Shown in pieces: positions 23,549-25,295 of a stretch of DNA of 64,000 nt. Position 1 is the first letter of the stretch; every line of letters begins with the position of its first letter. The DNA is taken from the NCBI GenBank assembly GCA_021846275.1, contig JAJZBZ010000002.1, forward strand, positions 496,001 through 560,000, in the 5' to 3' direction. Origin of the DNA: Acidobacteriota bacterium (GTDB lineage: Bacteria > Acidobacteriota > Terriglobia > Terriglobales > Acidobacteriaceae). The position numbers and the translations under genes are program-made. Below the pieces are notes generated by a model, which did not search any database, was not told where the DNA came from, and saw nothing but the letters and a program-made list of their open reading frames with translations.

Positions 23549-24919
23549 CTAGAAATAGTTCGTCAGCGAGACTGTGAACGTCAGAGCGTTGGGCACGCGC
23601 GGCGTGATGGCCGGGCCGTAGAGGTAGCTGAGTCCCGCGCCGATGTAGTTGCCTCCGCCGGCGTGGAGCGCGTAGCTGCCGGTGAAGCTGGTGGCTCCGC
23701 GCCATACGGTCCTGCCTTGCGCCACCAGGCTGTTCGTCTCCAGGCGGCTATAGCTCGTGTGGGAGGCCACAAACGTAATCAGGTCCGCCGGGCGCGAGGC
23801 CAGCGGAGCCTTGTCATAGAGCCGAAACTCCTCGTAGCGCGAATAATCGTTCAGCGAGCCGGGCACGGCCATGAACGAGCCTCCGGCATAGAAGCCGTGG
23901 TCCGGGTGCGCCGTGTCGGGCTGGAGCAACTGGCCATCGAGCAGGATGTAGGCGCAGTAGTTGCCCGGCTGCATGGCTCCGGTTGCCACATTCGCGTAGC
24001 GTGTCGCATTCCAGAAGTAGCCCATGCGCAGCCAGCGTTCGCGCGCCCGCGCGCTGGCGTCACGCAGATAGCCGAGTTCATTCAGCGAGATCAGCTTGTC
24101 GCCGTGCGGATCGAAGCGAAAGCCGGTGGCGTTGCGCGCGACCTCCGCCGGTCCGCCGTTGGGGTCAAGGCTGCGCTGGGCTGCCTCTTTCAGATACCAG
24201 TTGCGCGGCCCCTCGATGCGCACCAGCGTCGCCGGCGCGGTCAGCGGAAAGAAGCTCATGCCGACCTCAAACGGCAGCACGGCGTAGACACCCTGGCCGC
24301 CATTGGCCGACGAACCGCCGACAAACATGCCGACGAACTCCAGGTTCATCGAGATGTAGCCCGTCTTGAGCTGGACACGATCATGCGCCAGCGATTTGTA
24401 GAAGTAGAGATCCCAGAGCTGGATCGTCTTCGGCCCCGCCGGGTTCCATGTGACCCAGTTCCAGATGCCGCCCATGTAAAGCTGCGCTTTGTGCAGGCCG
24501 AGCTGCCGCAGGTCGGACACGAAGATCGGCTGCATCAGCCAGGATTCGTACGCGCGCTGGCCGATGTAGGTCTGCTGATCGGCAGGGACAGGCGCATCCA
24601 GCGCGTTCTGCGAATAAAACGCCTGCGTCACCACACGCATCGCCACGCCGTGGCGAAAGAGCGACTGTCGCCAGGCGGAGTGAACATCGATCATGCTGTC
24701 CTCAAACGTCGGCATCGACGCATCGCCCTCGGTCAGGTTCAGGTCGTCGATGGAGCGAGCAGGCACCGGCGCCGTCGGCAGATCGATGGTCGGCGTCGCG
24801 TCCTGCGCCCGCGCTGTACGCGCCACACCGGGCAGGAACGCAACGCTGATCAGCAGAGAACGGAGAACGACAGCGCAGAAGGAAGCAAACTTCCAATCAG
24901 GCCGGAGAATACTGCGCAT
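23549..24919 (-). CDS. OprB-type carbohydrate-selective porin family protein
   Basis: The protein has 456 residues. It has a signal peptide ([26 protein letters not shown]), then beta-barrel strands with alternating polarity, ending in SLTNYF, whose terminal Phe is typical of outer-membrane insertion. Internal motifs [45 protein letters not shown] and [16 protein letters not shown] are of the OprB type. The start overlaps the 3' end of the hydroxynitrile lyase-like cupin gene by 23 bp, so the two belong to one transcript. It differs clearly from the other porin at 1812. Confidence 0.75.
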
Positions 24920-25295
24920 CGCTGACAGGCTCCATCCATTCCACAGTTTTTCCGTCCAGCCGCTCCTGCACGGCGATGTGCGTCATCGCCGTGGTCGGCG
25001 CGGCACCGTGCCAGTGTTTTTCGCCCGGCGCGAACCAGACCACATCGCCGGGTCGAATCTCTTCGATCGGTCCATCCCAGCGCTGCACTCGTCCGCAGCC
25101 CGCTGTGACGATGAGCGTCTGGCCCAGCGGATGCGTGTGCCAGGCCGTGCGCGCGCCCGGCTCAAAGGTGACGGCTGCGGCGACCACACGCGCCGGGTCC
25201 GGCGTGGCCACAAGCGGATCGACGCGGACTGTTCCCGTAAACCACTCCGCCGGGCCGCGCGACGACGACTGGCTTCCAATGCGACGAATCTCCAT
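24897..25295 (-). CDS. Cupin, hydroxynitrile lyase-like (GtHNL/AcHNL type, Mn-binding)
   Basis: The 132-residue single-domain cupin is strikingly like the manganese-dependent (R)-hydroxynitrile lyases described from Granulicella tundricola and Acidobacterium capsulatum. Metal ligands are all present at the same numbers: His53, His55 and Gln59 in WHTHPLGQT and His94 in GEKHWHG, with second-shell His96 and His106 (AMTHIAVQ). Such enzymes cleave or form cyanohydrins in vitro; the natural role is unknown. Start at ATG 25295 with AGGGAGAG before it. The stop overlaps the porin gene start, which suggests the porin admits a substrate related to this enzyme. Confidence 0.88.

Follow-up and report, generated by a model that had tools for sequence, protein, structure and literature searches.

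Cupin hydroxynitrile lyases (HNLs) serve in biocatalysis, and we know of no natural role for them. The closest described enzyme to the protein analysed here is GtHNL. Two papers report that it also catalyses the addition of nitromethane to aldehydes and has been improved by the engineered changes A40H/V42T/Q110H (PMC8097096), and that ketones are not accepted for cyanide addition (PMC5413884). No operon role for HNL-type cupins was recognised in the literature outside most subscription journals, a body that excludes the primary GtHNL papers. On the regulatory side the closest described system is yqhC / yqhD-dkgA of Escherichia coli. YqhC is described as responsive to glyoxal, furfural and glycolaldehyde (PMC5297802, PMC6115493), and the yqhC-yqhD spacer as its single target in genomic SELEX (PMC8249747).

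We have analysed a 64,000-nt stretch of DNA (the window) from an Acidobacteriota bacterium, in which an HNL-type cupin gene overlaps a porin gene and lies in an operon divergent from the gene of a YqhC homologue. The features are:

21957 to 23297, minus strand: CitMHS/ArsB-type transporter (Pfam), 251 bp past the porin gene; operon membership uncertain
23549 to 24919, minus strand: OprB-family porin (Pfam PF04966), with a signal-peptide-like N-terminus as judged by eye
24897 to 24919, minus strand: overlap of the cupin end and the porin start, 23 bp (gene coordinates)
24897 to 25295, minus strand: HNL-type cupin of the GtHNL family (Pfam, NCBIfam and 4bif matches)
25532 to 25963, minus strand: DUF2255 protein (Pfam PF10012), first gene of the operon; putative TTG start as listed
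26041 to 26076, minus strand: predicted operator, in the 189 bp that separate the regulator and DUF2255 genes (scoring 38.4 with a PWM from a de novo motif)
26153 to 27142, plus strand: AraC-family regulator, AraC_N (PF06719, above the Pfam cut-off), homologous to YqhC and transcribed away from the cupin operon; start codon predicted

The cupin and its active site

The cupin gene runs from an ATG at 25295 to a TGA ending at 24897, and encodes 132 amino acids. Residues 1-129 align without gaps to GtHNL (4bif) with E = 3.4e-69. The nearest solved structures are 4bif and the variants 8oz8 and 4uxa, followed by TM1010 (2f4p, E = 1.6e-24), a protein of unknown function that is the nearest solved relative that is not an HNL. 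The protein scores 41.6 bits against Cupin_2 of Pfam (cut-off 27.2) and 201.8 bits against NF049940 of NCBIfam, the (R)-mandelonitrile lyase equivalog (cut-off 140). By sequence it is of a known kind, i.e. a member of the NF049940 family, with a putative R-selective, metal-dependent activity on cyanohydrins. A preliminary description of the locus had placed His53, His55, Gln59, His94, His96 and His106 in this protein, and all six are found at those numbers; we take these to be the metal ligands and active-site residues of GtHNL.

Related cupins were collected in two sets. The order loci are 80 stretches chosen non-randomly, some for a porin (four of those lacking a cupin) and the rest from a score list; they include the second locus of the window genome itself (L069), and the 76 with a cupin were counted. 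The named loci are the best 80 of 585 confirmed relatives. The sets overlap at L085/L143, L066/L160, L067/L182 and L065/L171. The named cupins were retrieved by patterns over residues 45-52 and 90-97, a selection that leaves the order counts alone unaffected at these positions. H53, Q59, H94, H96 and H106 are invariant in the 76 order cupins, while H55 is missing in one. The residues altered in the engineered enzyme, changes that are also visible in 4uxa, retain their unengineered identity almost throughout the order cupins (A40 in 75/76, V42 in 75/76 and Q110 in 74/76). Among the 155 cupins of both sets (two named rows, short or interrupted, being left out) H40 and T42 do not occur, and H110 occurs once.

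These data bear on the possibility that the protein is a true cyanohydrin lyase, whereby plant-derived cyanohydrins would enter through the porin and be split by the cupin into HCN and an aldehyde, the latter being removed in relatives by linked reductases. The strong match to GtHNL and NF049940 and the invariant active-site residues are what would be expected of such an enzyme, and linked reductases would suit an aldehyde product. Yet the positions that were mutated to make the enzyme better with cyanohydrins keep their original residues in nature, an argument that selection does not act on cyanohydrin cleavage. Moreover the regulator family is described as aldehyde-responsive (PMC5297802, PMC6115493), and no cyanide-handling gene was found among the annotated recurrent neighbours (for which cluster representatives were annotated). 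We consider this explanation improbable. Rather, reactive carbonyls are the probable substrates of the cupin, any cleavage of cyanohydrins being probably incidental. The nitromethane reaction of GtHNL with aldehydes and its failure to add cyanide to ketones are in line with a site that may bind aldehydes.

The cupin might instead be a manganese oxygenase resembling TM1459, carrying out oxidative C=C cleavage within an operon that handles the resulting aldehydes or peroxides. A cupin paralogue in the same genome (at L069) is fused to a CMD domain, of a family that includes peroxidases. The manganese cupin TM1459 itself splits styrenes to aldehydes (PMC10947199). However, the nearest solved relative outside the HNLs is TM1010. 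We think an oxygenase of this kind unlikely.

The regulator and its predicted operator

The regulator shows 32% identity over 251 amino acids to YqhC of E. coli and has the same domain content (PF06719 AraC protein). The window genome contains two PF06719 genes and two HNL-type cupins, paired within 5 kb of each other in the window and at L069. The latter locus (L069 6404-12303, at about 249400-255300 of contig C8, outside the window) has an AraC gene divergent from those for a 2Fe-2S subunit, a molybdopterin-binding subunit, an AKR and the cupin-CMD fusion. The two subunits are of the MoCo aldehyde-oxidase type, the fusion has a signal-peptide-like start, and the locus bears its own copy of the operator. 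Of the 17 PF06719 genes in the genus, nine have a cupin gene no more than 5 kb away on the same contig; the remaining eight have none so near (in G128, G205, G143 and G129, and twice each in G283 and G200).

The DNA ahead of AraC_N genes that diverge from a cupin gene was searched for motifs de novo (42 regions, one entered twice, giving 36 when near-copies were removed). The search yielded one motif of 20 columns with a score of 414.5, against 79.5-88.2 in three mononucleotide shuffles that were given 15 starts each, compared with 40 for the real set. The motif occurs in 29 of these 36 divergent spacers, including that of the window, and five of the seven regions without it come from outside Acidobacteriota. 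The long form is AGGCAAnAAATCGGCAGGATCGGGATACCG, of which the 3′ end is less conserved. The resulting PWM has a sole match above 8 in the window, i.e. the site at 26041-26076, which is itself among the 29 from which the PWM was built. In control DNA amounting to 480 kb it has no match scoring more than 5. Sites were found at 24/76 order loci and at 11/80 named loci (best 80 of 585), and none at stand-alone cupins such as GtHNL. Just one of the 24 motif-bearing order loci lacks an AraC_N match, this being L090, a contig of 3.2 kb. In the window genome the exact core pattern is confined to the two AraC loci; allowing one mismatch gives six more places, against one for a reversed control pattern. 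Two copies occur at L187, a Deltaproteobacteria MAG, with scores of 31.7 and 29.9, one about 2.3 kb upstream of the cupin start and the other about 1.8 kb downstream of it; these are the sole clear matches outside Acidobacteriota among the named loci (best 80 of 585).

The E. coli region was kept out of PWM construction. When the 12 kb surrounding yqhC are scanned, the top score (19.5 on 22 columns) falls in the yqhC-yqhD spacer; 60 mononucleotide shuffles gave a mean of 2.7 and reached 15.4 at most. By sequence match, an operator-like site in the divergent spacer is common to the window and yqhC-yqhD. The second-best match in this region is weak (7.4 on 22 columns) and lies inside yghB (L142 4141, minus strand).

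Beyond the regulator, the gene at 27268-28236 combines a sigma-70-like factor and a C-terminal zf-HC2 (anti-sigma-type zinc finger) in one protein. Just past it, 28347-34323 contains what appears by eye to be a run of genes like an RND efflux operon.

The operon, the porin and the recurrent neighbours

The first gene of the operon encodes a DUF2255 protein, a family labelled uncharacterised by Pfam. No solved relative was found by sequence. The structure model (pLDDT 81.8) has a best Foldseek match with E = 1.8e-4, TM about 0.5 and rmsd 4-6 Å, a moderate match from which an FMN/F420 split-barrel reductase-like fold is predicted. The gaps between the regulator and DUF2255 genes, the DUF2255 and cupin genes, and the porin and transporter genes are 189, 236 and 251 bp respectively, so that transcription of DUF2255-cupin-porin as one unit is an assumption. 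A scan of 21800-27300 for sigma-70-like promoters found none (shuffles 0.4), and there are seven terminator-like sites in the same region compared with a shuffled mean of 3.9 (sd 2.2).

The porin gene runs from an ATG at 24919 to a TAG ending at 23549, encoding 456 amino acids, of which residues 164-453 match OprB PF04966 with 49.5 bits (cut-off 22.9). The cupin stop overlaps the porin start by 23 bp (24897-24919), just as had been described, and a GGAG lies 10 nt upstream of the porin ATG; from the sequence, translational coupling of the two genes is plausible. The porin was also considered as a source of clues to the substrate. A profile search found no solved relative at E up to 1, and the structure model, built from a seven-row alignment, is strand-rich with a pLDDT of 46 and hence unusable, so this was dropped.

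How widely the two genes are paired was examined in 298 genomes of the order, requiring E ≤ 1e-20 for each protein. The cupin is present in 200 and the porin in 35, and in at least eight of the latter they are close together on one contig (G000, G283, G214, G074, G143, G114, G121 and G031). Within the genus the cupin is found in 15/15 genomes, the porin (E ≤ 1e-40) in 10 and the linked pair in six; the cupin is followed by the porin in G000, G283 and G214, while in G074, G143 and G114 the order is porin, other genes, cupin. G084 has SDR, ADH and cupin genes with no porin. Related OprB genes lie on the cupin strand within 4 kb of the cupin at L062-L068, and porin, regulator and operator occur together at L064, L066, L067 and L068. 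At L062, L063 and L274 an ATG is found at the identical 23-bp overlap, yet a second in-frame ATG lies four bases past the cupin stop, and either may start the porin.

The preliminary description had proposed, as a check, to see whether Granulicella and Acidobacterium share the overlap. We found no porin at the exact GtHNL locus (L121), and no porin matches at those of Acidobacterium sp. (L161) and Granulicella sp. (L196, which extends only 1.6 kb on one side). A cupin-porin link holds for part of the family (L062-L068), and we reject it as a general module on the basis of these loci, the counts of 35 and 200 genomes, and the small number of cupins that have OprB nearby. The pairing exists, though its range is local.

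In the window, as at L121 (7332-8612), the second gene past the cupin encodes a CitMHS/ArsB-type transporter; its cluster is present in two loci only, and the likeness may be chance.

Neighbours within 4 kb of the cupin were counted at E ≤ 1e-20 with profiles trained on the order loci, and 40 regions at arbitrary round coordinates in genomes of the same order served as control. At least one of AKR, ADH and AraC_N is present at 45/76 order loci and 50/80 named loci (best 80 of 585), compared with 1/40 controls. Giving the order loci and then the named loci (again the best 80 of 585), AKR is found at 37/76 and 39/80, and ADH at 27/76 and 27/80, both always on the cupin strand. AraC_N is found at 21/76 and 17/80, on the cupin strand in one and three cases respectively. 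The corresponding counts are 9/76 and 11/80 for SDR, 7/76 and 3/80 for OprB, and 4/76 and 2/80 for DUF2255. The named loci with AKR, ADH or AraC_N partners include Rhizobium, Paenibacillus, Chloroflexota, Verrucomicrobiota, Planctomycetota and Cyanobacteriota, some being MAGs. Representatives of the neighbour clusters are an aldo/keto reductase, a Zn-ADH (closest to the aldehyde reductase Ahr, although below the Ahr cut-off), an SDR, a tautomerase, a lipocalin-like protein and DUF2255, to which the named loci add CMD, RibD_C and a 2Fe-2S oxidoreductase subunit. The preliminary description took the porin as a hint that a small external substrate is taken up and processed. The partners that recur, carbonyl reductases together with a YqhC-type regulator, point to aldehyde or electrophile stress rather than to import and cleavage of cyanohydrins.

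The context is nevertheless patchy. No AKR, ADH or AraC_N lies within 5.5 kb of 59/155 cupins, GtHNL included, some of these being near contig ends. A profile search at E 1e-10 found no AKR or ADH in the window; elsewhere in the same genome there are AKR homologues at C8:649309 and C8:250300 (68-69% identical) and an ADH homologue at C11:373020 (61% identical, with one internal TGA). On a tree of the cupins the context label requires 33 changes, compared with a shuffled mean of 45.2, and one of 500 shuffles was as low. The tree has few columns and unsettled bootstrap values, and the window row was unplaced and labelled by hand; given also the patchy context, the phylogeny was dropped as a guide to function. 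The window cupin fails to group with those of L062 and L063, so that descent from a common ancestor may not be what gives these loci the same cupin-porin order.

It could be argued from this that the overlap is an accident of packing, in which a promiscuous stand-alone cupin happens to precede a porin gene with no common function. The frequent shifts of context on the tree, the failure of the window cupin to group with those of L062 and L063, and the scarcity of OprB near cupins are all in keeping with that. Against it, porins of this family are found again at L062-L068 in the same orientation as the cupin, in four of these loci together with the regulator and operator. We regard accidental packing as unlikely.

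Comparison with the yqhC and GtHNL systems

On balance we think that the locus is a relative, in reduced form, of the aldehyde-response system encoded by yqhC / yqhD-dkgA in E. coli, arranged as an AraC regulator divergent from DUF2255-cupin-porin with the operator between, and from which the reductases are absent. The gene content, the overlap, the homology with YqhC, the conserved operator sequence and the recurrent partners are its observed elements. An aldehyde or similar electrophile would activate the regulator, which would then act at the operator to turn on the three genes. The substrate of the metal-bound cupin would be a reactive carbonyl or an adduct of one; the cyanohydrin and nitroaldol chemistry measured with its relatives would be a side activity of that site. 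In those relatives the linked AKR and ADH would reduce the carbonyl, a step for which the window operon has no genes. The porin may pass small polar molecules across the outer membrane, inward or outward. Counting against this reading are the lack of AKR and ADH in the window operon and of such partners at the 59 cupins noted above, the patchy context, the origin outside Acidobacteriota of five of the seven regions that lack the motif, the absence of a cupin from the E. coli operon and the absence of a promoter-like site from the scan.

More tentatively, it is possible that HNL cupins are standard enzymes of YqhC-type aldehyde or electrophile regulons in several phyla, acting beside AKR and ADH. 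The natural reaction would be with a carbonyl or its adduct and the cyanohydrin activity incidental, while the regulator and operator would have persisted across the distance between Acidobacteriota and E. coli as the controlled enzymes were swapped. If so, the logic of YqhC extends well past Gammaproteobacteria, and enzyme engineers gain a better guess at the native substrate. The recurrent context, the regulator family, the predicted operator and the known inducers make the natural role of the cupin directly testable.

In comparison with known systems, the window cupin resembles GtHNL (4bif, and the variants 4uxa and 8oz8) in its gapless alignment and six active-site residues, and has the wild-type A40, V42 and Q110. 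The genetic setting differs; the GtHNL gene lies between scpB and pseudouridine-synthase genes, followed by a CitMHS transporter, with no porin and no regulator, whereas the window cupin sits in an AraC_N-linked operon. The porin matches the OprB carbohydrate porins above the Pfam cut-off. The E. coli YqhC system controls an Fe-ADH and an AKR and contains no cupin, while the predicted targets in the window are DUF2255, the cupin and the porin, without AKR or ADH. Since the reductases of the E. coli system are absent we do not class the window locus as a full YqhC-type member, although many related loci do have reductase genes, with a Zn-ADH in place of the Fe-ADH of E. coli. What the window has in common with E. 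coli yqhC / yqhD-dkgA is a divergent PF06719 regulator, an operator-like site in the spacer and predicted targets of redox type.
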